DNA of 64,000 nt from Lichenihabitans psoromatis (GTDB taxonomy: Bacteria; Pseudomonadota; Alphaproteobacteria; Rhizobiales; Beijerinckiaceae): NCBI RefSeq assembly GCF_004323635.1, contig NZ_CP036515.1, positions 2,295,501 to 2,359,500 on the forward strand. The letters are read 5' to 3'. The notes below the pieces were generated by a model, which searched no databases, was not told where the DNA came from, and saw only the letters and a list, made by a program, of their open reading frames with translations. Position 1 is the first letter of the stretch, and the number at the start of each line of letters is the position of its first letter. The position numbers and the translations under genes are program-made. Below, piece after piece: positions 14,045 through 51,635 of this stretch.

Positions 14045-14107
14045 TGATCGTCCCCCCTTGAAGTGGTCCATCCCGATGTATGGCTTTCGAGCCTGGAGGA
14101 TGGATCG

Positions 14108-14383
14108 ATGGGAAGACGACCGAAGCCTGAAGAGATCGTGAGCAAGCTGCGTCAGGTCGACGTGTTGGTCTCACAGGGGAAGACCGTTGCGGACTCGGTT
14201 CGCTCGATCGGGGTGAACGAGGTCACCTACTACCGGTGGCGGAAGGAGTTCGGCGGCTTGAAGCTTGACCAGGTCAAGCGCCTGAAGGAGCTGGAGACGG
14301 AGAACATGCGGCTTCGCAAGGCGATCGCCGACCTCACGCTCGACAAGCTGATTCTGAAGGAGGCGGCCTCGGGAAACTTCTGA
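14108..14383 (+). CDS. IS3-family transposase OrfA, copy 1
   Basis: A 91-residue HTH protein (MGRRPKPEEIVSKLRQVDVL, then VADSVRSIGVNEVTYYRWRK) followed by a leucine-zipper-like helix (VKRLKELETENMRLRKAIAD) and the IS407-group ending LDKLILKEAASGNF. It binds the element ends. The ATG at 14108 is preferred to an in-frame GTG 45 bases upstream. One codon differs from the other two copies: AAC (Asn) at 14216-14218 where they have ACC (Thr). OrfB is normally made by -1 frameshifting near the end of this frame. Confidence 0.93.
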   Translation: MGRRPKPEEIVSKLRQVDVLVSQGKTVADSVRSIGVNEVTYYRWRKEFGGLKLDQVKRLKELETENMRLRKAIADLTLDKLILKEAASGNF

Positions 14384-14415
14384 GCCCCGCGCGCCGGCGC
14401 GTCTGCATCGAGCAT

Positions 14416-15288
14416 GTGCGACAGCATTTGCCTGTCTCCGAGCGCCGCGTCTGTGCGGCGCTCGGTCAGCACCGCTCGACGCAGCGCAAGGCGCCGCGGG
14501 GCTTTGACGACGAAGAGGCGTTGACGGGCGACATCATCGAGCTGGCGCGGCAGTACGGCCGCTACGGCTATCGCAAGATCGCGGCGTTGCTGCGCGATGC
14601 CGGGTGGCTGGTAAACGACAAGCGGGTCGAGCGCATCTGGCGATGCGAAGGGCTGAAGGTGCCGGCCAAGCAGCCGAAGAAGGGACGTCTCTGGCTCAAC
14701 GACGGCTCCTGCATTCGCCTCCGGCCCGAGCACCGCGATCACGTCTGGTCGTACGACTTTGTCGAGGATCGCACGCATGACGGCCGCAAGTTCAGGACCC
14801 TCAATGTCGTCGACGAGTTCACCCGGGAGTGCCTGGCCATCCGGGTCGCGCGCAAGCTCAACTCGACCGACGTCATTGACGTTCTGTCCGACCTGTTCAT
14901 CCTGCGCGGCGTGCCTGGTCACATCCGTTCGGACAACGGCCCCGAGTTCATCGCCCAGGCTGTGCAAGACTGGATCACGGCGGTTGGAGCAAAGACCGCC
15001 TATATTGCCCCAGGCAGCCCGTGGGAGAACGGCTACGTCGAGTCGTTCAACGCTCGCTTCCGAGACGAGCTGCTCGACGGAGAGATCTTCTACTCGCTCA
15101 AGGAAGCTCAGGTCATCATCGAAAGCTGGAGAAGGCATTACAATACTGTGCGCCCGCACGGATCAATCGGCTACAAGCCCCCGGCGCCGGAGGTCTTCGT
15201 GCCCGCCTTCGCCGCATGGCCGGCTGCGAAACCCCGACCATCTCCGCCGGCCATGCTCAGGGTGGCGCCCAGGCCGACCATGAACTAA
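14416..15288 (+). CDS. IS3-family transposase OrfB (DDE), copy 1
   Basis: A 290-residue catalytic subunit of the rve/DDE class. The HTH_21 region is at RQYGRYGYRKIAALLRDAGW, and the catalytic triad is visible as D in VWSYDFVED, D in HIRSDNGPEF and E in NGYVESFNARFRDEL. The frame is open upstream of the GTG used here, back to the OrfA stop (KLLSPARRRVCIEHVRQH), as expected for an OrfAB fusion made by frameshifting. The protein sequence is identical in all three copies, which suggests recent spread. Confidence 0.94.
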   Translation: MRQHLPVSERRVCAALGQHRSTQRKAPRGFDDEEALTGDIIELARQYGRYGYRKIAALLRDAGWLVNDKRVERIWRCEGLKVPAKQPKKGRLWLNDGSCIRLRPEHRDHVWSYDFVEDRTHDGRKFRTLNVVDEFTRECLAIRVARKLNSTDVIDVLSDLFILRGVPGHIRSDNGPEFIAQAVQDWITAVGAKTAYIAPGSPWENGYVESFNARFRDELLDGEIFYSLKEAQVIIESWRRHYNTVRPHGSIGYKPPAPEVFVPAFAAWPAAKPRPSPPAMLRVAPRPTMN

Positions 15289-15322
15289 CAATCAACCCGG
15301 ACCACCCGATGGGGGCCGATCA

Positions 15323-21200: not shown

Positions 21201-21234
21201 TGATCGGCCCCCATCGGGTGGTCCGGGTTGATTG

Positions 21235-22107
21235 TTAGTTCATGGTCGGCCTGGGCGCCACCCTGAGCATGGCCGGCGGAGATGGTCGGGGTTTCGCAGC
21301 CGGCCATGCGGCGAAGGCGGGCACGAAGACCTCCGGCGCCGGGGGCTTGTAGCCGATTGATCCGTGCGGGCGCACAGTATTGTAATGCCTTCTCCAGCTT
21401 TCGATGATGACCTGAGCTTCCTTGAGCGAGTAGAAGATCTCTCCGTCGAGCAGCTCGTCTCGGAAGCGAGCGTTGAACGACTCGACGTAGCCGTTCTCCC
21501 ACGGGCTGCCTGGGGCAATATAGGCGGTCTTTGCTCCAACCGCCGTGATCCAGTCTTGCACAGCCTGGGCGATGAACTCGGGGCCGTTGTCCGAACGGAT
21601 GTGACCAGGCACGCCGCGCAGGATGAACAGGTCGGACAGAACGTCAATGACGTCGGTCGAGTTGAGCTTGCGCGCGACCCGGATGGCCAGGCACTCCCGG
21701 GTGAACTCGTCGACGACATTGAGGGTCCTGAACTTGCGGCCGTCATGCGTGCGATCCTCGACAAAGTCGTACGACCAGACGTGATCGCGGTGCTCGGGCC
21801 GGAGGCGAATGCAGGAGCCGTCGTTGAGCCAGAGACGTCCCTTCTTCGGCTGCTTGGCCGGCACCTTCAGCCCTTCGCATCGCCAGATGCGCTCGACCCG
21901 CTTGTCGTTTACCAGCCACCCGGCATCGCGCAGCAACGCCGCGATCTTGCGATAGCCGTAGCGGCCGTACTGCCGCGCCAGCTCGATGATGTCGCCCGTC
22001 AACGCCTCTTCGTCGTCAAAGCCCCGCGGCGCCTTGCGCTGCGTCGAGCGGTGCTGACCGAGCGCCGCACAGACGCGGCGCTCGGAGACAGGCAAATGCT
22101 GTCGCAC
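21235..22107 (-). CDS. IS3-family transposase OrfB (DDE), copy 2
   Basis: The 290-residue sequence is identical to OrfB of copies 1 and 3, with the intact DDE residues (VWSYDFVED, HIRSDNGPEF, NGYVESFNARFRDEL). It is expected to be expressed as an OrfAB fusion by -1 frameshifting and to catalyse excision and integration. No disabling mutation is present, so this copy should be active. Confidence 0.94.
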   Translation of the reverse strand: MRQHLPVSERRVCAALGQHRSTQRKAPRGFDDEEALTGDIIELARQYGRYGYRKIAALLRDAGWLVNDKRVERIWRCEGLKVPAKQPKKGRLWLNDGSCIRLRPEHRDHVWSYDFVEDRTHDGRKFRTLNVVDEFTRECLAIRVARKLNSTDVIDVLSDLFILRGVPGHIRSDNGPEFIAQAVQDWITAVGAKTAYIAPGSPWENGYVESFNARFRDELLDGEIFYSLKEAQVIIESWRRHYNTVRPHGSIGYKPPAPEVFVPAFAAWPAAKPRPSPPAMLRVAPRPTMN

Positions 22108-22139
22108 ATGCTCGATGCAGACGCGCCGGCGCGCGGGGC

Positions 22140-22415
22140 TCAGAAGTTTCCCGAGGCCGCCTCCTTCAGAATCAGCTTGTCGAGCGTGAGGTCGGCGATC
22201 GCCTTGCGAAGCCGCATGTTCTCCGTCTCCAGCTCCTTCAGGCGCTTGACCTGGTCAAGCTTCAAGCCGCCGAACTCCTTCCGCCACCGGTAGTAGGTGA
22301 CCTCGGTCACCCCGATCGAGCGAACCGAGTCCGCAACGGTCTTCCCCTGTGAGACCAACACGTCGACCTGACGCAGCTTGCTCACGATCTCTTCAGGCTT
22401 CGGTCGTCTTCCCAT
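22140..22415 (-). CDS. IS3-family transposase OrfA, copy 2
   Basis: A 91-residue HTH and leucine-zipper protein that binds the element ends. It is identical to OrfA of copy 3 and differs from copy 1 by one residue (Thr instead of Asn in VRSIGVTEVTYY). The start is the ATG giving MGRRPKPEEIVSK. A longer in-frame reading from a GTG at the IS end is unlikely. Confidence 0.93.
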   Translation of the reverse strand: MGRRPKPEEIVSKLRQVDVLVSQGKTVADSVRSIGVTEVTYYRWRKEFGGLKLDQVKRLKELETENMRLRKAIADLTLDKLILKEAASGNF

Positions 22416-22537
22416 CGATCCATCCTCCAGGCTCGAAAGCCATACATCGGGATGGACCACTTCAAGGGGGGACGATCAGTCAATCTGGCTCAAGCGAGCC
22501 GACATCGGCTGAAAGACGGGCGCGTCTCTCTGGCTCA

Positions 22538-29817: not shown

Positions 29818-30546
29818 TCAGCTTCGGTTCTTGAAGCGCCAGCTGGTGTTGCCGGTCTCGATGATGTCGCAGTGGTGGGTCAGGCGATCGAGCATGGCGG
29901 TGGTCATCTTGGCGTCACCGAACACCTGAGGCCAGTCGGCGAAGGCCAGGTTGGTCGTGATCAGCAGTGATGTGTTTTCGTAGAGCTTGCTGATGAGGTG
30001 GAACAGGAGTTGGCCGCCGGGCTGGCTGAACGGCAGATAGCCGAGTTCGTCGATGACGATGAGATCGTAGCGCAGCAGGTTCTCGGCGAGGCGGCCGCTG
30101 CGGCCTGCGGCCTTTTCCTGCTCGAGCAGGTTGACCAGATCGACGAGATTGAAGAAGCGGCCCCGCGCCCTGGTTCGGATCACCGCCGAGGCGACACCGA
30201 TGCAAAGGTGCGTCTTGCCGGTGCCGGTTCCACCGATGAAGATCGTGTTGCGCTTGGCATCCAGGAAGGCGCCGGTCGCAAGCTCGCGGACCTGACCTTC
30301 GTCGACCGGCGTCTCCGCGAACACGAACGTGTCGAGGTCCTTGAGCACCGGGAACTTGGCGCCCCCGAGACGGTAGCTGATCGATCGGGCCTGACGATGG
30401 GTCCGCTCGGCCCGGATCAGACTGGCGACCAGCGGATAGATCTCGTCTCGTCGGGCAAGGCCCTTGCCGGCGATCTCGTCGAAGCTGGCGCGCATGCCAT
30501 AGAGTTTGAGGTCGTTCATCGCCTCCAGGATATCGTGGCGTTCCAT
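29818..30546 (-). CDS. istB: IS21-family helper ATPase IstB
   Basis: 242 residues of the AAA+ IstB/DnaC-like family that assembles on target DNA and directs the transposase. Walker A is [12 protein letters not shown], Walker B is [20 protein letters not shown], and the sensor is [18 protein letters not shown]. The start at 30546 ([18 protein letters not shown]) is chosen because it overlaps the istA stop in a TGATG arrangement, as usual in IS21; the longer frame would extend into istA. Confidence 0.94.
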
Positions 30547-32099
30547 CAGGCGACCCTCCTCAGGCTGTCGTAGCGGCCACAATCGGCCGACGGTTCGATC
30601 TTCAGGCGAAGCGCATCAGGCGTCGTGATGCTGGGCGGTTCCGCTGGCTGGCGCTGTCGCGCCACCACGGTCAGAATGACGGCAGCGCTCGCAAGGCCGG
30701 CCGTCAGCGCCTCGGCGCAGGCGGCCTCGACCGCGTCCAGACCGTGGTCGAGCACGGCGGCCAGAACGGTGACGAACTGGCGGTCACCATCCGCGTGGCT
30801 CTTCAGCTTGGCGCGCACCTGGGCCAAGGCCGGTGGCAGATCCCAATCCTTGAAGGGTGCTCCGTTGCGCAAGGCGCCGGGCTTCCTCAGCAGGACGGGC
30901 AGGTAGTGCCATGGATCGTAGATGACCTGGTCGCGCCGGAAGCTGCGGGGATGGTCGGCCACGACCTCGTCGTCGAGCAGCACCGTGATGCGCTCGGCAT
31001 GGGAGCGCACAAGCACCATCCGCCCCGCGGCGCGGGCATCGACGCTGTAGCGGTTGTGATCGGCCATGATCAGGCACGTGGTGGCGGCCCGGACCGCCTT
31101 CTCGACGAAGCCGTCGAACGGTCCACGCTGTTCCATCAGGCTCGCGCACTCGTCCTGTAAAACATCCCAGATGGTGCGGTCCTTGAACTCCGGGTGCCGG
31201 GTCCGCTTGGCGTAGGCGATGCACTGATCTTCAAGCCACCCGTTCAACTCGATGAGGCTTTTCACCCGCGGCTTGGGGCGGAACAGCAGGTCGCGCAGCG
31301 TGCCGACTTGGTTCTCGACCTGCCCCTTCTCCCATCCAGCCGCCGGCGTGCATGCAACCGGCTCGATCAAATGGTGCGAGCACATCTGCAGGAAGCGACG
31401 ATTGTACTGCCGCGCCTTACCCACGAAGATCGCTTCCACCGCCGTCTTCATGTTGTCGTAGATGCCGCGCCGGCAAACCCCGCCGTAGAACGCGAACGCC
31501 TTGTCGTGGGCGAAGCGCGCCAGGGCCCCTGTCCTGCGAAGCAGGTCAGGGTGGCAAGCGGAGGGGTCGAAGACCAGCTCCTGCGTCTCGCGGAAGTAGG
31601 CCCGCACGAACGGCATGCGGCTGTGCGACAGCTTCATATGCGCCGCCTTGATCGTCAGCGGCAGGCCTTGCAGCGTGATCGTCTCGTGGCTCCAATCGAA
31701 CTGATACGCCTCGCCGGGCGCAAAGCTCATCGGCACGAACGCCCGCGCCGGAACGCGGGCCCGTTCCTCGCGCCAGAGCTTGGCAAAGCGGTGCACGCTA
31801 TCGTGGGCGCCGTCATACCCGCGGCCACGCAGTTCCTCGAACAGGCGCTGGGTCGACCGGCGCTCCCGGCGCGGAAGCTTGGCCTCGCGCTCCAGGATCG
31901 CCGTCAGGTCCTCGACCCACTCACCGAGCTTGGGAACTGGCTGGACACCACGCTCGTACTTGAACTCGGTCGCCTGAGTGCGGATCACCTTGCGCACCGT
32001 CGCACGCGACACCGACAGCGTTCGGACGATCTCCTTGATGGGCCGGTGCTGGTCGAAATACGCGCGTCGGATTCGGCCGATCATGTCCACGACGATCAT
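30546..32099 (-). CDS. istA: IS21-family transposase IstA
   Basis: About 517 residues. It has an N-terminal HTH ([20 protein letters not shown]), an rve-type DDE core with D in [11 protein letters not shown] in [13 protein letters not shown] and E in [12 protein letters not shown], and a C-terminal beta domain ([20 protein letters not shown]). The ATG at 32099 follows AGGGGG closely; ATG 32084 ([11 protein letters not shown]) is an alternative. No frameshift is seen, so the element should be functional together with istB. Confidence 0.94.
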
Positions 32100-32222
32100 C
32101 CCCCTGACATCCTTCCGGGCCGACAGGGCCACGGAAGGGACGCTGACACACAGCGTTCGAGGGGGTCACGATCGGGCGCGAAAACCGCCCCTCAGGGGGT
32201 CATTATTGCGGGCGATTTCACA

Positions 32223-32710
32223 TCCTGCGTTCGGTGTTTCAGATCGTCGAGCTTGAGCCTGAGCCGCTCCAGTTCGCTCTTGTGCGAAGTCACGTTCACG
32301 AAAGAGGCGAAGTGCTGCACGACGGCACCGGCATCGTCCCGGACCTGACTGATGAAGACGGAAACCCAGATCGTACTGCCGTCCTTGCGGTGAAAGCGAA
32401 GCGGCGTATCGAGGTCGCGACCGCCCTCGAAGGCGGTCTGGATCTGCGTCATCGCTTCGGGGTCGTTGCCGCTTTGGATCAGGAAACCGAACTTTTGGCC
32501 AAGCACCTCATGTTCGTCGTAACCCGTGAGGTCGAGGAAGGCCTGATTGACGAACACGATCGGCTTGTCCGGCGCCCTTGCGTTGCAGAATACCATCGGC
32601 ATCCTTGTCGTCTCGGCGGCTACGACGAAGGGACCGAGGTCCTCGCGGAAGCCTTCGACAACGGACTCCGCGTCCTTCTGCTGGCCTGACTTATCGGCTT
32701 GTTCCGCCAT
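32223..32710 (-). pseudogene. LOV-like PAS sensor kinase, kinase domain removed by IS21
   Basis: The remaining 162 codons encode one PAS domain with LOV features: PIVFVNQAFLDLTGYDEHEV, then FHRKDGSTIWVSVFISQVRD and a DVT-like end (NVTSHKSELERLRL). The position that holds the flavin-reactive Cys in LOV domains (NCRFL) reads KFGFL, so classical photochemistry is not expected. After the PAS a helix leads into LKHRTQ, which looks like the start of an HWE/HisKA_2 phosphoacceptor motif, where the IS begins. HWE kinases with PAS/LOV inputs often feed the alphaproteobacterial general stress response. Confidence 0.8.
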
Positions 32711-33012
32711 GAAGCTTCTCCCAACGCCCGAAAAGCACGAACCCCATCGAGCGGCTAAATCTCGTGAGATGACCGCAACCCGGCGCGGACCACCTCACTC
32801 GTCACCGATGCGCGTTGGTATCGATGGCGGCCCTTGGGATTTACCGGGTCCCTGTGGCAGACATTATCATAAGGGCCGGATCACTTGGCGAGGCGCAAAT
32901 TTAAGCATAGTCGAGATGCATATATGAAATCACGGGCGCTCTAGCATCGCAACGCTCTTTGCGTATCAACAGAATTCGATAATCAAAGTCATTGTGATAT
33001 CTTCACCCGAGC
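32711..33012. other. Intergenic region upstream of the sensor gene
   Basis: About 300 bases with no gene. The only structured element is the motif at 32907-32920, described separately. The part from about 32940 to 33005 is more AT-rich than its surroundings. Confidence 0.5.
32907..32920 (-). promoter_or_regulatory. TGCATnTCsACTAT motif, site A (upstream of the LOV-like sensor)
   Basis: Read on the minus strand, TGCATCTCGACTAT lies 197 bases upstream of the sensor start and points toward it. The same core occurs at 34738 and 36558, in each case directed at a downstream start codon. Identity as promoter or activator site is inferred. Confidence 0.55.
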
Positions 33013-33053
33013 AAAAGTCGAGACGCCCTCCTTGAGGAAGCGTCTCGTTTTAA
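33013..33053 (-). terminator. Terminator downstream of the Met-rich peptide gene
   Basis: CGAGACGC (33019-33026) pairs with GCGTCTCG (33040-33047) around a loop that holds a second small stem. On the minus strand it is followed by ACTTTTGC, on the plus strand by TTTTAAAA, so it could work in both directions. It starts three bases after the stop of the 33056 gene. Confidence 0.75.
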
Positions 33054-33055
33054 AA

Positions 33056-33250
33056 TCACATGCGATGCATCATCTTCTTGTGCATCATCATTTTCTTATT
33101 CATCATCTTGCCGTGCATCATCTTGCCGTGCATCATGGACTTATGCATCATCGGCTTCTTCATCATCTGCGCGGAGGCCGGCGCTATGGCGGCGCCGAGT
33201 GAGCAGGCGATGGCCGCGCACGCGAGGATCAGGCTCTTGGTCTTTGTCAT
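33056..33250 (-). CDS. Small exported Met/His/Lys-rich peptide (MrpX-like)
   Basis: 64 residues: a Sec signal peptide (SLILACAAIACSLGAAIAPA, cleavage likely after ASA) and a mature part of about 37 residues built of MMHGK, MMHKS and MMNKK units. Sixteen of these residues are Met, with several His and many Lys. Such peptides can serve as a methionine sink for hypochlorite or other oxidants (known from periplasmic Met-rich peptides paired with YedY-type reductases) or bind copper. It follows the ferritin-like gene by 32 bases with SD AGGAG and ends at a terminator, so it closes that operon. The function is inferred from composition and neighbours. Confidence 0.75.
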   Translation of the reverse strand: MTKTKSLILACAAIACSLGAAIAPASAQMMKKPMMHKSMMHGKMMHGKMMNKKMMMHKKMMHRM

Positions 33251-33282
33251 GGGTGTTCTCCTGTTATGCCTTCAATGCGGGA

Positions 33283-33939
33283 TCATCCCGCGATGAACGG
33301 ACCTGCGATCGCCAGTACCTGCGCCTTGCTGAGCGGCTTGTCGAAGGCGCCGGTCCAGGGCTTCTGCTTGCGCAGCAGCCGCACCGAAGCCGCATGTCGC
33401 GCCTCGACCGAATGGATCTGCAACGCCGTCGTGAGCAGCTTGCCGCCGCCGACGAGGTTGGGTGCCTGCCCCTTGTAGGCGGCGACGCCGGTGTCTTCCA
33501 ACGCCTGCGACACCGCCGCGAACGTCTTGAAGTTCTGGAACACGTCGCGGTATTTCCCGCGCGCCGTGAAGTCGAACTCCGGCTTGGCGATCGCCGCGCC
33601 CCCGAGCACGGATTGGAGCAGCGCGACGTGCGCGGTTTCGTGCTGGCTGATGACCTGGAACGTAGCTCCGGCATAGTCGGGGATGAGCCCGCCCTGGGCC
33701 AGCGCCGTCCGGTAGAACTCGTCTTCCAGGTATTCCAGTGTCAGCGCGAAGTTCAGGATGTCCGCGACCTGTTGCGGCACCTGCGCGAAGGCCTCCGACG
33801 AGACGGCGGCCAGCATCATCGGGGCGGTCGCAAGGGCGCCGAGCTTGAGGGCTGCGCCTGCGAAGAGATCGCGCCGTTTGATCAGGCGGTTGGAGAGGTC
33901 GGGATCGATCCCGTCGAGAATGGCGATGTCGGTGGACAT
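33283..33939 (-). CDS. Exported ferritin-like domain protein, second of a pair
   Basis: About 218 residues. The ATG at 33939 is chosen: the longer frame overlaps the upstream gene. The N-terminus has a twin-Arg-type or Sec signal (LIKRRDLFAGAALKLGALAT). The ferritin-like four-helix bundle shows E/H-containing helices: ILNFALTLEYLEDEFYRTAL, FQVISQHETAHVALLQSVLG and TALQIHSVEARHAASVRLLR. This is the Ferritin_2/desiccation-related type. These proteins are associated with stress survival; iron oxidation has rarely been shown. It lies 22 bases after the first ferritin-like gene. Confidence 0.85.
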   Translation of the reverse strand: MSTDIAILDGIDPDLSNRLIKRRDLFAGAALKLGALATAPMMLAAVSSEAFAQVPQQVADILNFALTLEYLEDEFYRTALAQGGLIPDYAGATFQVISQHETAHVALLQSVLGGAAIAKPEFDFTARGKYRDVFQNFKTFAAVSQALEDTGVAAYKGQAPNLVGGGKLLTTALQIHSVEARHAASVRLLRKQKPWTGAFDKPLSKAQVLAIAGPFIAG

Positions 33940-33961
33940 ACGGTGAGTCCTTTCGGAGGGA

Positions 33962-34630
33962 TCAGGGAAGTTGCGAGGCGGCGACGGGCGTCGCGATGAA
34001 GGGTGCGACCATCGGCAGGACCTGGGACGGCAGCAGCGCCCGGTCGAGGCCGTTCTGGTCGATCGGGCCGAAGTCGCCGACGATGGCGTGGATGGTTGCG
34101 GCGTGCCGCGCTTCGACCGACACAATCGAACCAGCGATCGCCAGGTACTTCGGGCTTTGGATCGCAGCGCCGCCGCCGTTGTAGGCGGCCACGCCGAGGT
34201 CCTCGAAGGTCGAAGCGGTACCGAGAACCGATTCTCGGCGGGAAAAGTCGATGGCGGCGAAGTTGGGTGTCAGGTCGGGGATGCGATTGCCGCCGAGGGC
34301 CCGGGCGAAAAACGTCCTGTGTGCGATCTCATGCGCCTTGATGTCCTGGAGGAGCGAACGTTCTCCCCGAGTCATACCTTCATAGGGAGAGGCGAGGACT
34401 TGGGTGTAGAAGGCCGCTTCGAGCTGCTCCAGGGCGTAGGCGTAGTTCAAGACGCCGAGGTCCCCGGCGCCAAGGTCGACCCCGGCCTGGGCGAACGCTT
34501 GGTTCAGTTTCAGGCCGGGCACATCGACGCCGAAGGCGACCGCTGCAACTGCTGTGACACCGGCCCATTTCAGGATGGAACGTCGGGAATTGCTCCCGTA
34601 ATCGGGTTCGTTAAGGATTGCGCTGGTCAT
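33962..34630 (-). CDS. Exported ferritin-like domain protein, first of a pair
   Basis: About 222 residues with the start at ATG 34630 (GGGAGA just upstream). A twin-arginine-type signal is seen at NSRRSILKWAGVTAVAAVAF. The bundle helices carry paired E and H residues (LNYAYALEQLEAAFYTQVLA, LLQDIKAHEIAHRTFFARAL and SIVSVEARHAATIHAIVGDF), a possible diiron site. It is a paralogue of the next gene, with modest similarity. It heads a minus-strand operon with the second ferritin-like gene and the Met-rich peptide, divergent from the cytochrome b gene. Confidence 0.87.
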   Translation of the reverse strand: MTSAILNEPDYGSNSRRSILKWAGVTAVAAVAFGVDVPGLKLNQAFAQAGVDLGAGDLGVLNYAYALEQLEAAFYTQVLASPYEGMTRGERSLLQDIKAHEIAHRTFFARALGGNRIPDLTPNFAAIDFSRRESVLGTASTFEDLGVAAYNGGGAAIQSPKYLAIAGSIVSVEARHAATIHAIVGDFGPIDQNGLDRALLPSQVLPMVAPFIATPVAASQLP

Positions 34631-34737
34631 ATCGTCTCCCATGCCCATTATTCAGGCCCAGATCGGACTCCGAATGGCTATGTACAGTAGTTACGTGAGA
34701 CGCGGCGGCACGATGCGCTGTGCGGTCCGTGCAAATA

Positions 34738-34751
34738 TGCATTTCCACTAT
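34738..34751 (+). promoter_or_regulatory. TGCATnTCsACTAT motif, site B (between the ferritin operon and cytochrome b)
   Basis: TGCATTTCCACTAT on the plus strand lies 60-133 bases upstream of the possible cytochrome b starts. It also lies 108 bases upstream of the divergent ferritin-like start, so it may control both. The flanking bases (AAATA before, GCGAATATT after) resemble site A. Confidence 0.6.
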
Positions 34752-34811
34752 GCGAATATTTATCGCCGACTTACCACGACGTTGTGCGAGGCCTCGAAGT
34801 CCGAGTGAAAT

Positions 34812-35771
34812 TTGCATCGAGCGTCGACCATACGGTCTTTGAGTGAGTTTCTCGGCTCCTCGGTAGTAGCGATCGGAACTTCAGTGTCACTGGCCGAAGC
34901 GGAGCGGAACGATCCCGTCGTGTCGAACGACGACGCCGTTCCCAAGGGCAAGAAACAGCACCTCGTCACGCTGGTGAAGCGCCATAGCGTCGTGGTTCGC
35001 GTGACTCACTGGATCACGGTGCTGTGCCTGACCATGCTGCTGATGAGCGGCCTCCAGATTTTCAACGCTCGGCCGCAACTCGACTTCGGCAACAAGACCG
35101 ATTTCGATCATCCGCCCGTCGCCATCGATTCCGACAAGGTCGACGGCAAGGCGCGGGGATACGTTCGGATCGGCGTGCATCGCTTCGACACGACAGGCGT
35201 CCTCGGGATGTCAGACTTCGAGGGCAAACCGACCGAGCGTGCCTTTCCGTCTTGGGCGACGCTGCCTGGCGAGCAGGACCTCGGCACCGGACGAGCCATT
35301 CACTTCACATTCGCTTGGCTGTTCGTCGCCAACGGCCTCGTCTACCTCGTCTGGGGTTTCGCGACCCGCCACTTCCGTCGCGACTTCGTACCGAGCCGCT
35401 TTCAATGGCGGCATATCGGCGGCGAGATTCTCGATCACGCCAGGCTTCGCTTTCCCAAGGGGGAAAAAGCGCGGCAGTACAACGCCATCCAGAAGATCAC
35501 GTACTTCCTGGTCGCCCTCGTCCTTCTGCCGCTCCTGGTCGTGGCGGGCTGGACCATGTCGCCGGGCCTCGACGCCGCGTTTCCCTTTCTCCTTCATATC
35601 TTCGGGGGCCGGCAGACCGCACGTTCGGTTCACTTCTTCGCTGCGTTCGGGGTCGTGCTGTTCGTGCTCGTCCACGTGGCCCTGGTGCTCTTGTCCGGGC
35701 TCTTCAACAACATGCGTTCGATGATCAGCGGCTGGTACGACATCGGGCAGGAGCGCGGGACCCATGGTTGA
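34812..35771 (+). CDS. Cytochrome b/b561-type membrane subunit
   Basis: Up to 319 residues; the start is uncertain (TTG 34812, or GTG 34884 giving VSLAEAERND). The membrane part has several helices with heme-ligand-type His residues: VVRVTHWITVLCLTMLLMSG, GRAIHFTFAWLFVANGLVYL and TARSVHFFAAFGVVLFVLVH. It belongs to the Ni/Fe-hydrogenase-type cytochrome b superfamily that passes quinol electrons to periplasmic partners. Its stop overlaps the following molybdoenzyme gene by eight bases, so the two form an oxidoreductase pair. Confidence 0.85.
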   Translation: MHRASTIRSLSEFLGSSVVAIGTSVSLAEAERNDPVVSNDDAVPKGKKQHLVTLVKRHSVVVRVTHWITVLCLTMLLMSGLQIFNARPQLDFGNKTDFDHPPVAIDSDKVDGKARGYVRIGVHRFDTTGVLGMSDFEGKPTERAFPSWATLPGEQDLGTGRAIHFTFAWLFVANGLVYLVWGFATRHFRRDFVPSRFQWRHIGGEILDHARLRFPKGEKARQYNAIQKITYFLVALVLLPLLVVAGWTMSPGLDAAFPFLLHIFGGRQTARSVHFFAAFGVVLFVLVHVALVLLSGLFNNMRSMISGWYDIGQERGTHG

Positions 35772-36546
35772 TCGTCCGACGACACGACGCACCATCCTGA
35801 CGAGGGGAGCGGCCGCGATCGCCGCCCTGGGCCTCGCCGGCTGCGAGAAGATCACCGACAACCCCTTCGCGAGGCAGGTCCTCGATGGTGTCGGTGGGTT
35901 GAACCGAACGGCCCAGGAAGCGATCCTCGGTTCTGAACAACTGGCCCCGGAATACGAGTTTAGCGACGTCTCGACAATGTTTTATGCCAACGGCTCCACC
36001 GATCCCGACGACGAGCACTACAAGGCGATGGCCGCCAAGAGCTTCGTTGCCTACAAGCTGGTCGTCGACGGCTTGGTCGAGCGTCCGCTGGAGCTGACGT
36101 TGGCGGAGCTTCGCGCCATGCCCGCCCGGACGCAGATCACCCGGCACGACTGCGTTGAGGGATGGAGCTGCATCGGCCAGTGGACCGGCACGCCATTGCA
36201 GGGCGTGCTGGACCGGGCCGGCGTGAAGGCGACGGCGCGTTACGTCGTCTTCTACTGCTTCGACACGATGGACGACGGGGATCCGTCCGGTCCCACTCCG
36301 TTCTACGGGAGCGTCGACCTTCTCGCCGCACGGCACCCGCAGACCATCCTCGCCTATGACATGGGCGGCAAGCCGCTGGAGGTGAAGTACGGGGCCCCGC
36401 TGCGCCTCCGCGTCGAGAGGCAGCTTGGCTACAAGATGACGAAGTACATCAAGCGCATCCAGCTCATGGAGGATTTCAAGGACATCGGCCAGGGCAAGGG
36501 CGGCTACTGGGAGGACAGCGGCTACCAGTGGTACGCGGGAATATGA
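35764..36546 (+). CDS. Exported sulfite-oxidase-fold molybdopterin oxidoreductase (MsrP/YedY-like)
   Basis: 260 residues. The N-terminus has a twin-Arg signal (TTRRTILTRGAAAIAALGLA) and a lipobox (LAGC), so it may be anchored outside the cytoplasmic membrane. The sulfite-oxidase fold is shown by ITRHDCVEGWSCIGQWTGTP, where the Cys of DCVEGW should bind molybdenum, and by KPLEVKYGAPLRLRVERQLG. There is no C-terminal dimerisation domain, as in MsrP rather than sulfite oxidase. With the cytochrome b it probably forms a quinol-driven reductase; methionine sulfoxide is a candidate substrate, given the Met-rich peptide next door. Confidence 0.82.
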   Translation: MVDRPTTRRTILTRGAAAIAALGLAGCEKITDNPFARQVLDGVGGLNRTAQEAILGSEQLAPEYEFSDVSTMFYANGSTDPDDEHYKAMAAKSFVAYKLVVDGLVERPLELTLAELRAMPARTQITRHDCVEGWSCIGQWTGTPLQGVLDRAGVKATARYVVFYCFDTMDDGDPSGPTPFYGSVDLLAARHPQTILAYDMGGKPLEVKYGAPLRLRVERQLGYKMTKYIKRIQLMEDFKDIGQGKGGYWEDSGYQWYAGI

Positions 36547-36557
36547 GAAATCAGATC

Positions 36558-36571
36558 TGCATATCCACTAT
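36558..36571 (+). promoter_or_regulatory. TGCATnTCsACTAT motif, site C
   Basis: TGCATATCCACTAT lies 12 bases after the molybdoenzyme stop and 109 bases upstream of an ATG with a strong ribosome binding site (36670-36682). Orientation relative to the next start matches sites A and B. Confidence 0.55.
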
Positions 36572-36669
36572 TTAAAAACGCCTAAAAGTTTTCCGCTTTT
36601 TGCAGTCGTCCAGATGTATTTATAGAGTGTTCGATGAGTTTTTCCGGACCTCATATGTCAATGTAATTT

Positions 36670-36700
36670 GGAGGATAAAATGCCCATCGAGCAAGCAATA
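36670..36700 (+). other. Ribosome binding site and seven codons of an ORF interrupted by IS630
   Basis: GGAGGA (36670-36675) precedes ATG 36680, giving MPIEQAI before the IS630 target TA. Removing the IS and one TA gives eight more codons and a stop (MPIEQAIALRLPCHK). So this is either a leader-sized peptide or the start of a gene already damaged before the insertion. Confidence 0.4.
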
Positions 36701-37862
36701 ATACCAAGCGGCACTAATCAGAACCCGTGTGCCCACTCTCGGCGTCCCAGGCTCATAATTCTCCACGGCTGGTCGGTGAGCTTGTTCCAGGCGTCGCAGC
36801 AATGGCCGACGATGTCGTCGTAGGAGACCAACACTCGGTTTGACAGCCAGTTGTCGCGCATGAACTGCCAGACGTTTTCGACCGGGTTCAGCTCAGGGGA
36901 GCGAGGCGGGAGTGGCAGGAGGGTGATATTGGCGGGCACGGCGAGCTTGGCCGATCCGTGCCATCCAGCTTGGTCGAGCATGAGAACGGCGTGCGCGCCA
37001 AGATCGACGGCCGCGCTGATCTCCTTGAGGTGCTCGGTCATGGCCTCGGTATCGCACCACGGCATGACGAGACCGGCTCCTTTGCCCTTGGCCGGACAGA
37101 TTGCCCCGAAGATATAGGCCCATTTGGTTCGCTGATCGTGCGGCGCACGCGGACGCGTCCCTCGCTTGGCCCAGCGCCGGCTGATGGTATTCTTCTGACC
37201 TACCCTGGCCTCGTCCTGCCACCACAACTCTATAGGGGTGTGAGCCGGGAGGGTGGCTTTGATCGCCGCCAATTGGGTCGGGAGGGTTTTTTAAAAGCCG
37301 CCATGGCGGGCTCGCTCTGCGCATAGTGCTGAGGGCGGGCCGTCAGCTTGCGGAAGCCGAGCTTGCGCACCTCGCGGCTGACCGTCGTCTCGTCCAGGCT
37401 GATGCGGAACTCCTCAAACACCCACCGGGCAAGGTCGCGCAATCGCCAGCGCACCACGCCATGGATCGCCGGGATCGGTCCGCTCTCGATGATGCGCGCC
37501 AGGGCCGGGCGCTGCGCGTCGTCCAGCTTGGAGGGGTTGCCGGGGGCCTTGCCAGCAATCAGCCCATCGGGGCCATCCGTGTTGAAGGCAAGTACCCAAT
37601 CCCGGACCGTCTGCAATCCCACCCCACCGATTCGGGCCGCGTCCGTGCGCGTGCCGCCGTCGTAGATCTCCGCCAAGGCCAGCAGACGCCGGCCTTGCGC
37701 GGCGTCCTTGGTCGCCTTCGCAGCTCTTCTCAATGCATCAGCGTCATAATCGGCGCGCAGGGCGATGGGCGTGCTCATGGCGGACACTCCTGGTCCGCCC
37801 CATTGATTCAGCCTTCAGCCGATTCGCATAGGCCGTGAGTCTCGCTCATCGAGAGTTGGTAT
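36701..37862 (-). mobile_element. IS630-family insertion sequence
   Basis: The element is 1162 bases, flanked by the TA target duplication typical of the family (36699-36700 and 37863-37864). Both ends begin ATACCAA when read inward. It encodes one transposase split by a programmed -1 frameshift. It inserted downstream of the molybdoenzyme gene. Confidence 0.9.
36718..37778 (-). CDS. IS630-family transposase, two frames joined by -1 frameshifting
   Basis: The N-terminal frame (37778-37230) has the HTH (RTDAARIGGVGLQTVRDWVL); the start ATG 37778 has AGGAG eight bases upstream. The C-terminal frame (down to 36718) has the DDE domain (LWWQDEARVGQKN, AVLMLDQAGWHGS and LPPRSPELNPVENVWQFMRD with the last acidic residue in NPVENVW). 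They overlap around an A6 run (TTTTAAAAAACCC near 37283-37295), a typical slippery site; a one-base backward slip gives a continuous protein of about 350 residues. Confidence 0.9.
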
Positions 37863-40262: not shown

Positions 40263-41552
40263 GTTGGACACCTCCAAATACCTCGCGGTTTCGACCCGGC
40301 CGTGATTCCATGGGGTTCGGCGGGTAGGAGGCAGGGCGATGCGCGGCCAGGCAGGGTTCTTCGACATTGACGAGCGGCTGAAGGCGATTTCGGCCAAGGG
40401 CGACGATCTTGAGCGGCTCACGGCGATCGTCGATTTCGAAGCTTTCCGGTCCGATTTCGCCCAGGCCGTGCCGCGCTCGGACGGCCGCAAGGGTGGGCGG
40501 CCGCCGTTCGATCATGTGTTCATGTGGAAGGTGCTTATTCTTCAGGCGAGCCACTCGCTGTCGGACGAGCGGACCGAGTTCCTGATCAAGGACCGGCTGT
40601 CGTTCATGCGGTTTCTGGGCCTCGGCCTGTCCGATCCAGTGCCGGATGCCAACACGATCTGGACCTTCCGCGAAGCCCTCACCCGAGCGATAATTGGAGA
40701 CACACCCGCCATCACGGTGCTGTTCCGCGCCTACGAGGCGGCGCTGACCAAGGCGGGTTTCCTCGCCATGGGCGGGCAGATCATCGACGCCACGATCGTG
40801 TCTGCGCCCAAGCAGCGCAACACCGATGGCGAGAAGGTCGACATCCGGGCCGGCCGGGTTCCGGCGGGCTGGGCGGACAAGCCGGCCAAGCTCGCGCAGA
40901 AGGACCGGGACGCGCGCTGGACGGTCAAGTTCTCCAAGGCGAAGCCATCGGACGATGGCTCGCCACGCAGCGACCTGGCGGTGCCTGCCTTTGGCTACAA
41001 GAACCACATCGGCATCGACCGGCGTCATGGTCTGATCCGGACCTGGACGGCCACCCACGCGGCGCGTCACGACGGGGCGCAGTTGCCCAACCTGATTTCA
41101 AAGGCGAACACCGCGAGCACCGTGTGGGCGGACACGGCCTACCGCTCGAAAGTGAACGAGCAGCATCTCACTGCGAGCGGCTTGCGCTCGGAGATCCATC
41201 GTAAGAAGCCCGCAGGGCGTCCGATGGCAAAGAACATCGCGCGAGCCAACAACGCCCGATCGAAGGTCCGTTCCGCGGTCGAGCATGTCTTCGCCCGGCA
41301 GAAGGGGCCGATGGCGCTGGTCGTGCGTACCATCGGGCTCGCACGCGCCACCGTGAAAATCGGACTGGCCAACATCGCCTACAACATGCGCCGTTCTGTC
41401 TGGTTGACAGCAAAGCACCAGGCGAAAGCCTGAAAACCCAATCTGAGAGACACCTACCGACGGATCTCGCCCCCCGATCACTCCATCTCAGCGCGCATCA
41501 ACGCCTCGACCCCAGCTTACGCCAGAGATCGTGGTTTTTGGAGGGGTCCAAC
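40263..41552 (+). mobile_element. IS5-family insertion sequence
   Basis: The element is 1290 bases. Imperfect inverted ends read GTTGGACACCTCCAAATACC on the left and GTTGGACCCCTCCAAAAACC in the reverse complement of the right. It carries a single transposase gene. No target duplication is obvious (AAAG on the left, TGAT on the right). Confidence 0.87.
40339..41433 (+). CDS. IS5-family transposase
   Basis: A 364-residue DDE transposase of the DUF4096/DDE_Tnp_1 type. It has an N-terminal domain with GRPPFDHVFMWKVLILQ and LSDERTEFLIKDRLSFMRFL. The catalytic D is seen in GGQIIDATIVSAPKQRN, the second D in TASTVWADTAYRSKVNE and the final E in RSKVRSAVEHVFARQKGPMA, within the Y-(2)-R-(3)-E-(6)-K-like motif. 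The frame is complete and probably functional. Confidence 0.93.
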   Translation: MRGQAGFFDIDERLKAISAKGDDLERLTAIVDFEAFRSDFAQAVPRSDGRKGGRPPFDHVFMWKVLILQASHSLSDERTEFLIKDRLSFMRFLGLGLSDPVPDANTIWTFREALTRAIIGDTPAITVLFRAYEAALTKAGFLAMGGQIIDATIVSAPKQRNTDGEKVDIRAGRVPAGWADKPAKLAQKDRDARWTVKFSKAKPSDDGSPRSDLAVPAFGYKNHIGIDRRHGLIRTWTATHAARHDGAQLPNLISKANTASTVWADTAYRSKVNEQHLTASGLRSEIHRKKPAGRPMAKNIARANNARSKVRSAVEHVFARQKGPMALVVRTIGLARATVKIGLANIAYNMRRSVWLTAKHQAKA

Positions 41553-50264: not shown

Positions 50265-50420
50265 GAGTGCTCCAGACGGCGAGGATGCGCCAGGAGCGGA
50301 CATAAGCTGACCGTCCAGGACCAGACGTTCGGCTTCGCGCCTAACCACGCCACTCAGTGATCGTCCCCCCTTGAAGTGGTCCATCCCGATGTATGGCTTT
50401 CGAGCCTGGAGGATGGATCG

Positions 50421-50696
50421 ATGGGAAGACGACCGAAGCCTGAAGAGATCGTGAGCAAGCTGCGTCAGGTCGACGTGTTGGTCTCACAGGGGAAGACCGT
50501 TGCGGACTCGGTTCGCTCGATCGGGGTGACCGAGGTCACCTACTACCGGTGGCGGAAGGAGTTCGGCGGCTTGAAGCTTGACCAGGTCAAGCGCCTGAAG
50601 GAGCTGGAGACGGAGAACATGCGGCTTCGCAAGGCGATCGCCGACCTCACGCTCGACAAGCTGATTCTGAAGGAGGCGGCCTCGGGAAACTTCTGA
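50421..50696 (+). CDS. IS3-family transposase OrfA, copy 3
   Basis: A 91-residue HTH and leucine-zipper end-binding protein, identical to that of copy 2 and one residue different from copy 1. The start is MGRRPKPEEIVSK. It supplies the N-terminal part of the OrfAB transposase after frameshifting. Confidence 0.93.
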   Translation: MGRRPKPEEIVSKLRQVDVLVSQGKTVADSVRSIGVTEVTYYRWRKEFGGLKLDQVKRLKELETENMRLRKAIADLTLDKLILKEAASGNF

Positions 50697-50728
50697 GCCC
50701 CGCGCGCCGGCGCGTCTGCATCGAGCAT

Positions 50729-51601
50729 GTGCGACAGCATTTGCCTGTCTCCGAGCGCCGCGTCTGTGCGGCGCTCGGTCAGCACCGCTCGACGCAGCGC
50801 AAGGCGCCGCGGGGCTTTGACGACGAAGAGGCGTTGACGGGCGACATCATCGAGCTGGCGCGGCAGTACGGCCGCTACGGCTATCGCAAGATCGCGGCGT
50901 TGCTGCGCGATGCCGGGTGGCTGGTAAACGACAAGCGGGTCGAGCGCATCTGGCGATGCGAAGGGCTGAAGGTGCCGGCCAAGCAGCCGAAGAAGGGACG
51001 TCTCTGGCTCAACGACGGCTCCTGCATTCGCCTCCGGCCCGAGCACCGCGATCACGTCTGGTCGTACGACTTTGTCGAGGATCGCACGCATGACGGCCGC
51101 AAGTTCAGGACCCTCAATGTCGTCGACGAGTTCACCCGGGAGTGCCTGGCCATCCGGGTCGCGCGCAAGCTCAACTCGACCGACGTCATTGACGTTCTGT
51201 CCGACCTGTTCATCCTGCGCGGCGTGCCTGGTCACATCCGTTCGGACAACGGCCCCGAGTTCATCGCCCAGGCTGTGCAAGACTGGATCACGGCGGTTGG
51301 AGCAAAGACCGCCTATATTGCCCCAGGCAGCCCGTGGGAGAACGGCTACGTCGAGTCGTTCAACGCTCGCTTCCGAGACGAGCTGCTCGACGGAGAGATC
51401 TTCTACTCGCTCAAGGAAGCTCAGGTCATCATCGAAAGCTGGAGAAGGCATTACAATACTGTGCGCCCGCACGGATCAATCGGCTACAAGCCCCCGGCGC
51501 CGGAGGTCTTCGTGCCCGCCTTCGCCGCATGGCCGGCTGCGAAACCCCGACCATCTCCGCCGGCCATGCTCAGGGTGGCGCCCAGGCCGACCATGAACTA
51601 A
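50729..51601 (+). CDS. IS3-family transposase OrfB (DDE), copy 3
   Basis: 290 residues, identical to the other copies; the DDE residues are intact (VWSYDFVED, HIRSDNGPEF, NGYVESFNARFRDEL). The frame is open upstream to the OrfA stop. It should be active. Confidence 0.94.
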   Translation: MRQHLPVSERRVCAALGQHRSTQRKAPRGFDDEEALTGDIIELARQYGRYGYRKIAALLRDAGWLVNDKRVERIWRCEGLKVPAKQPKKGRLWLNDGSCIRLRPEHRDHVWSYDFVEDRTHDGRKFRTLNVVDEFTRECLAIRVARKLNSTDVIDVLSDLFILRGVPGHIRSDNGPEFIAQAVQDWITAVGAKTAYIAPGSPWENGYVESFNARFRDELLDGEIFYSLKEAQVIIESWRRHYNTVRPHGSIGYKPPAPEVFVPAFAAWPAAKPRPSPPAMLRVAPRPTMN

Positions 51602-51635
51602 CAATCAACCCGGACCACCCGATGGGGGCCGATCA

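Follow-up and report, generated by a model that had tools for sequence, protein, structure and literature searches.

SigF/NrsF, YedYZ and MrpX form a periplasmic methionine cycle with the genetic make-up sigF/nrsF-mrpX-yedYZ (PMC4623255), and BcrS/AbcS together with bcrXQP are described as co-transcribed and induced by hypochlorous acid (HOCl) (PMC8315932). MsrPQ, which is copper-induced in Escherichia coli, repairs methionines of the copper chaperone CusF (PMC9302797), and Caulobacter SigF, with a YedY gene among its targets, acts in a heavy-metal response (PMC3511200). The ferritin-like protein DRB0118 and the tardigrade protein FeMP are reported as weak, metal-dependent metabolite phosphatases (PMC11616004); for all five reports, our summary follows the excerpts available. 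In this study, we analyzed a 64-kb window of Lichenihabitans psoromatis DNA (the whole stretch, G000:C1:2295501-2359500, G000 being this genome) and focused on a cluster of five genes at positions 33056-36546. Our analysis suggests that this cluster is probably a regulated module of the periplasm in which methionine is oxidised as a sink and then repaired. The five genes and the DNA element between them are as follows.

33056..33250, minus strand: MetX, a Met-rich peptide of 64 residues with a predicted export-type N-terminus (translation and conservation; without a Pfam or NCBIfam match)
33283..33939, minus strand: FerB, a DRB0118-like ferritin-like protein with a twin-arginine N-terminus (PF13668; 36% identity to a DRB0118 segment)
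33962..34630, minus strand: FerA, a ferritin-like protein with a twin-arginine translocation (Tat)-type N-terminus (PF13668; start at 34630 or 34648)
34732..34759, plus strand: shared 28-base element in the gap between FerA and CytB, with the core GCATTTCCACTAT at 34739-34751
34884..35771, plus strand: CytB, a cytochrome b561-type membrane subunit with a putative quinol link (PF01292; start by alignment)
35764..36546, plus strand: Mol, a sulfite-oxidase-fold molybdenum (Mo) enzyme with a twin-arginine N-terminus, a LAGC lipobox read by eye and a Cys within CVEGW (PF00174, alignment and tree)

All five open reading frames (ORFs) were present and, with their Pfam matches, they confirm the gene content given in a preliminary description of this DNA, namely a Met-rich exported peptide, two ferritin-like genes, a cytochrome b and a sulfite-oxidase-fold gene. 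FerA and FerB are 22 bases apart, FerB and MetX 32 bases, and the CytB and Mol genes overlap by 8 bases; judging from aligned starts, CytB probably begins at GTG 34884 rather than TTG 34812. Counted on the translation, MetX carries 16 Met among its final 37 residues, and its N-terminal stretch, a putative export signal judged by hydrophobicity, ends in ASA. Its Met pairs stand together with Lys, His or Arg, making it a Met-pair/His/Lys peptide without an MXKDX repeat. The ratio of nonsynonymous to synonymous differences (pN/pS; simple Nei-Gojobori counts in four genomes) was 0.04-0.31, indicating that MetX evolves under constraint and is conserved as a protein. Conservation at the protein level in these genomes excludes a chance ORF, as does the finding that MetX is the sole ORF in the whole window with at least 6 Met per 30 residues downstream of a hydrophobic N-terminus, our rule for Met-rich exported peptides.

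The association between MetX and the CytB-Mol pair recurred within the genus, for which we sampled six genomes. Mol with at least 82% identity was found at six loci in four of them, and at all six loci MetX lay within 2 kb of this Mol/CytB pair. Genome G111 encodes the whole five-gene set. MetX-CytB-Mol is also present at two loci in G054 and in G086, where FerA gave no match and a 37-41 residue end of FerB stands just before MetX (54, 54 and 78% identity with E values of 6e-5, 7e-5 and 2e-15, two of the three matches being weak). Because FerB remnants adjoin MetX, FerA has no match and the core is kept, the ferritins seem to have been lost while MetX-CytB-Mol stayed. With only a FerB remnant at three of the six genus loci, the ferritin-like genes are accessory and not part of the core, and we rejected them as a core component. 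Seven lower-identity Mol paralogue loci in the genus had no Met-rich neighbour (five of them checked for 1.5 kb per side). We also observed MetX-like Met/His-rich exported peptides at L141:7611-7844 and L140:5070-5303, with no Mol-CytB match across 15-20 kb, and a third such peptide at L136, with no Mol-CytB match in 1.5 kb per side. All five kinds of gene occur in Methylobacterium sp. J-070 in a different order, and this is one of the four loci at which we found the five-gene set. Thus, the co-occurrence proposed in the preliminary description holds for a three-gene core; the combination of five is rare, which speaks in part against its larger version.

We then looked at the level of the order, in which Mol is present at an E value of 1e-50 or better in 90 of 397 genomes. 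CytB adjoined Mol at each of 29 loci checked. Within a set of 60 fetched Mol loci, mainly the best-scoring ones, 15 had, within 2 kb of the pair, an ORF that fits our rule for Met-rich exported peptides; one of these (L190) was judged spurious and another (L222) doubtful. From the distal DNA of these loci, which has 3 Met-rich ORFs in 810 kb, 1.25 would be expected, against the 16 ORFs observed. Most of these peptides consist of MKxDA or MXKDX-like repeats and are encoded directly upstream of CytB. On the Mol tree, the Met-rich label sits on 21 of 80 tips (L190 excluded) and changes 10 times, compared with a shuffled mean of 18.7; it is clustered, yet was gained or lost several times. An extracytoplasmic function (ECF) sigma factor and NrsF lie within 4 kb at 6 of the 60 loci, 5 of these with a peptide, and the sigma factor alone at one further locus (found by tblastn, the queries coming from two loci, with two loci also checked against Pfam). 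Hence, the trio of Met-rich exported peptide, cytochrome b and sulfite-oxidase-fold enzyme, anticipated in the preliminary description, recurs with chemically unlike peptides on several branches of the Mo-enzyme tree, in some cases with SigF/NrsF.

We also examined what kind of enzyme Mol is. Its Mo-ligand Cys aligns within CVEGW, resembling CVEAW of MsrP and unlike the CAGNRR-type active site of the aligned sulfite-oxidase-like proteins. The Pfam match of Mol is to the oxidoreductase molybdopterin-binding domain (PF00174, E 1.1e-32), and CytB matched PF01292 (E 1.1e-22) and, under the cut-off, PF14358. The 260-residue Mol should be a lipoprotein, since its twin-arginine segment ends in LAGC. 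With the MsrP model NF003767, E. coli MsrP scored 504.2 bits and a true MsrP encoded elsewhere in the L. psoromatis genome 414.6 bits; Mol itself, at 92.5 bits for a cut-off of 207, is not MsrP. Mol scored still lower with the curated models for sulfite oxidase/SorA/SorT/SoxC (63.2, 42.2 and 47.2 bits for cut-offs of 600, 570 and 420). In a FastTree tree with few reference proteins, rooted on three sulfite-oxidase-like proteins, MsrP of E. coli and of this genome grouped with a 43% paralogue from the same genome, beside the other Mol sequences. MsrQ, which is ferric-reductase-like, was ruled out as the partner, which is a cytochrome b561. The earlier assignment to an MsrP/YedY-type enzyme with a heme partner therefore stands as far as a Mo reductase/cytochrome pair goes and fails for MsrP and MsrQ as such; in the phylogeny, MsrP branches beside Mol, whose score falls short of the MsrP cut-off and, by a wide margin, of those for sulfite dehydrogenases.

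These scores raise the question whether Mol-CytB acts on another substrate, such as a small S- or N-oxide or sulfite, with MetX merely a co-regulated stress peptide. This would fit the score below the MsrP cut-off, the separate true MsrP and the 45 of 60 Mol loci without a Met-rich neighbour, as well as another exported-looking partner without a Pfam match beside the pair at 10 of the 60 loci. The repeated pairing with unlike Met-rich peptides and the retention of the core where ferritins were lost argue against it, and we consider it unlikely. The exported-looking proteins (for example L037:5338-5964 and L193:11385-12068) are encoded within 2.5 kb of CytB-Mol; two members of the group were searched and had no Pfam match, and they may be another partner or substrate. 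At 37 of the 60 loci there was neither a Met-rich ORF nor such a neighbour.

FerA and FerB both matched Ferritin_2 (PF13668; E 3.5e-37 and 3.7e-38) and conserve the ligand set E, E..H, E, E..H. This agrees with the DRB0118/FeMP family, for which a Ferritin_2 domain with the ligands E, E..H, E, E/D is expected. Among the families in our structure listing, which leaves those outside it in play, they resemble the desiccation-type proteins DRB0118 and FeMP most. Iron or peroxide removal by these proteins, as suggested in the preliminary description, found no direct support. The pair could still be the active defence, as ferroxidase, Mn/Fe peroxidase or iron store, with MetX serving as reductant or metal carrier. 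In line with this, the ligand set is complete, and a Met-rich exported ORF adjoins FerA-FerB at four Methylobacterium loci (L033, L038, L043 and L085, a count that leaves out two further M. radiotolerans plasmid ferritin matches), at three of which CytB-Mol was not found in the examined stretch. Against it stand the lack of a Met-rich ORF within 2 kb at 77 of the 80 ferritin loci retained from a species collection (3 had one), the three genus loci at which MetX persists with only a FerB remnant, and the weak phosphatase activity reported, in the excerpt available, for the nearest studied relatives (PMC11616004). On balance, such a ferritin-centred defence seems doubtful. A more elaborate version, in which MetX is a recyclable reductant whose Met residues FerA/FerB use to destroy peroxides and which Mol-CytB re-reduces from the quinol pool, that is, a peptide-relayed periplasmic peroxidase driven by the respiratory chain under the PAS-HWE kinase described below, strikes us as very unlikely. 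A Met-rich match at L117, at a distance of some 2 kb or more from the ferritin genes, looks spurious. We also saw an exported-looking DUF4142 protein near two Methylobacterium ferritin loci (L038:1351-1860 by Pfam; L085:4374-4931 by likeness).

The composition of the peptides bears on a further explanation, in which MetX is primarily a Cu(I)/Ag(I)-binding Met/His peptide and Mol-CytB keeps its Met reduced for metal binding within a metal-stress module. MetX peptides in the genus have Met/His-rich tails, one paralogue has MMHH repeats, and a Paraburkholderia plasmid carries CytB-Mol near cueR and genes for a metal P-type ATPase and a multicopper oxidase (L036:6082-14612). The copper-induced repair of CusF by E. 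coli MsrPQ (PMC9302797) and the heavy-metal response with a YedY target under Caulobacter SigF (PMC3511200), both as given in the excerpts, also agree with it. By contrast, L033 and L043 have Met-rich tails that lack His and are strongly cationic, and most peptides at the level of the order consist of acidic MKxDA-like repeats. We regard a metal-binding role as the most serious alternative to the sink-and-repair module, albeit an unlikely one.

The least expected results were a common DNA element and an apparent change of regulator. Three further features of the window belong here.

32192..32710, minus strand: PAS part of a PAS-HWE kinase gene, the kinase part being missing in the window
32899..32926, minus strand: second copy of the 28-base element, upstream of the kinase fragment
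36559..36571, plus strand: core match of the element that failed the longer pattern, 3' of Mol and 5' of a small gene

The core GCATNTCSACTAT occurs exactly six times in the L. psoromatis genome, five times at the two copies of the cluster present there; the sixth site (G000:C1:2434719) is absent among the matches to the longer pattern and was taken as chance. The longer pattern gave 16 matches in five of the six genus genomes and the reversed pattern none. Six of the matches lie in the gap before CytB and 10 upstream of PAS-HWE kinase homologues, including four new sites (three in G111, one in G133) that all precede such a homologue. Kinase homologues are encoded near all six genus loci (70-100% identical, the window having only a fragment). 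The copy at the second cluster, L011, has both PAS and HWE kinase domains, and the window PAS fragment scored 114.3 bits with the LOV HWE kinase model, for which the cut-off is 450. The cluster and the kinase genes, which have this element in common, are probably switched on together. SigF/NrsF control of the window cluster was rejected for want of such neighbours: queries from two SigF/NrsF loci gave no tblastn match in the window, L011, L030 or L137-L139, and NrsF is encoded elsewhere in all six genus genomes.

The second cluster copy (G000:C1:1844729-1848218) is 95% identical to the window in Mol, 98% in CytB, 92% in FerA, 99% in FerB and 100% in MetX. Compared over 32300-36700, the two are ∼100% identical across 32600-33500 and 73-79% identical in 100-base bins of 34600-34900, a mosaic that suggests recombination or gene conversion between them. 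FerA of copy 2 has lost its start frame, with a TAG stop upstream (L011:10633-10660), and is whole in the window; the kinase is whole in copy 2 (L011:12568-13605) and has lost its kinase part in the window, beside a transposase-like ORF, so that the decay of the copies is complementary. The small gene after Mol, which is preceded by the element core and has no Pfam match, is truncated in the window and complete in copy 2 (L011:8115-8594). A third Mol-CytB pair of this genome (70% identity) has no MetX or ferritin within 20 kb. The neighbourhood might be an accident of insertion-sequence traffic, given the transposase-like ORFs around the cluster (29818-32132, 36718-37787 and 40339-41433, presumably IS21-, IS630- and IS5-like) and a nearly identical 1280-bp repeat in both neighbourhoods. 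The same cluster in G111, the different order in J-070 and the core in G054 and G086 largely refute this explanation, which we hold to be highly improbable. The repeat itself (99.9-100% identical; window 14045-15322, 21201-22480 and 50358-51635, and L011:1846-3125) looks like recent insertion-sequence spread.

A regulated sink-and-repair module is the best supported reading, in which we infer MetX export, Met oxidation and reduction, the electron route and the ferritin chemistry from sequence. MetX would be secreted and its paired Met residues oxidised sacrificially by HOCl, oxidants derived from peroxide or the like. As an anchored lipoprotein, Mol would reduce the resulting Met sulfoxides with electrons passed on by CytB from the quinol pool. 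FerA and FerB may be an optional add-on: four-helix proteins with a di-metal site, exported and of the DRB0118/FeMP desiccation type, with a protective or clean-up role under the same stress, as phosphatases or by handling metal or peroxide. With their common element, the cluster and the PAS-HWE kinase genes would be switched on together, where relatives use SigF/NrsF.

Several observations weigh against this interpretation. Mol stays below the MsrP cut-off, and the 45 of 60 Mol loci without a Met-rich ORF by the same rule imply that Mol also serves other purposes. For the most part, the 60 loci are the best-scoring ones, and the expected number of 1.25 ignores their relatedness. Some MetX-like peptides lack a close Mol pair, namely those of G133 and lone paralogues encoded in G000 and G054. 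The element pattern was drawn by eye from the cluster sites, so that 12 of its 16 matches are not independent. Finally, the kinase PAS domain resembles LOV domains, in which the photoactive Cys lies in the motif NCRFLQ, but the window fragment and copy 2 have GQKFGFLIQ where this motif is expected. Judged by the motif, the photoactive Cys is missing, which makes light sensing doubtful, and a canonical blue-light LOV sensor was dropped.

Compared with described systems, the locus resembles MrpX-YedYZ of Azospira and BcrXQP of Brucella in encoding a Met-rich exported peptide together with a membrane subunit and an enzyme of the sulfite-oxidase fold, a likeness in gene make-up taken from published descriptions. 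Order-level homologues of its CytB-Mol pair sit in SigF/NrsF loci, as in those systems. Unlike them, the window has a Met-pair/His/Lys peptide instead of MXKDX repeats, a PAS-HWE kinase and a common element instead of nearby SigF/NrsF, and two additional ferritin-like genes. With E. coli MsrPQ (YedYZ) it shares the Mo-binding Cys in CVE(A/G)W, a membrane partner and, by prediction, the periplasmic side, but Mol is a short putative lipoprotein below the MsrP cut-off with a cytochrome b561 partner. CusF-MsrPQ, as far as the excerpt goes, likewise involves a periplasmic protein whose Met residues a Mo reductase repairs (PMC9302797), there a folded chaperone and here a repeat peptide. Compared with DRB0118, tardigrade FeMP and PCC13-62, FerA and FerB are shorter and form a tandem pair in a Met-peptide operon; we found no report in the openly licensed literature of desiccation-type ferritin-like proteins beside methionine redox defence, and these proteins of unsettled function thereby gain a context. 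Our results suggest that the cytochrome b561/Mo-lipoprotein pair, which is common in the order, is often partnered with Met-rich peptides that differ in chemistry (cationic or acidic), and that different regulators have come to control the same core. Overall, the core appears to be a variant of the known MrpX/YedYZ and BcrXQP kind, from which the ferritin-like genes and an apparently different regulator set this cluster apart.

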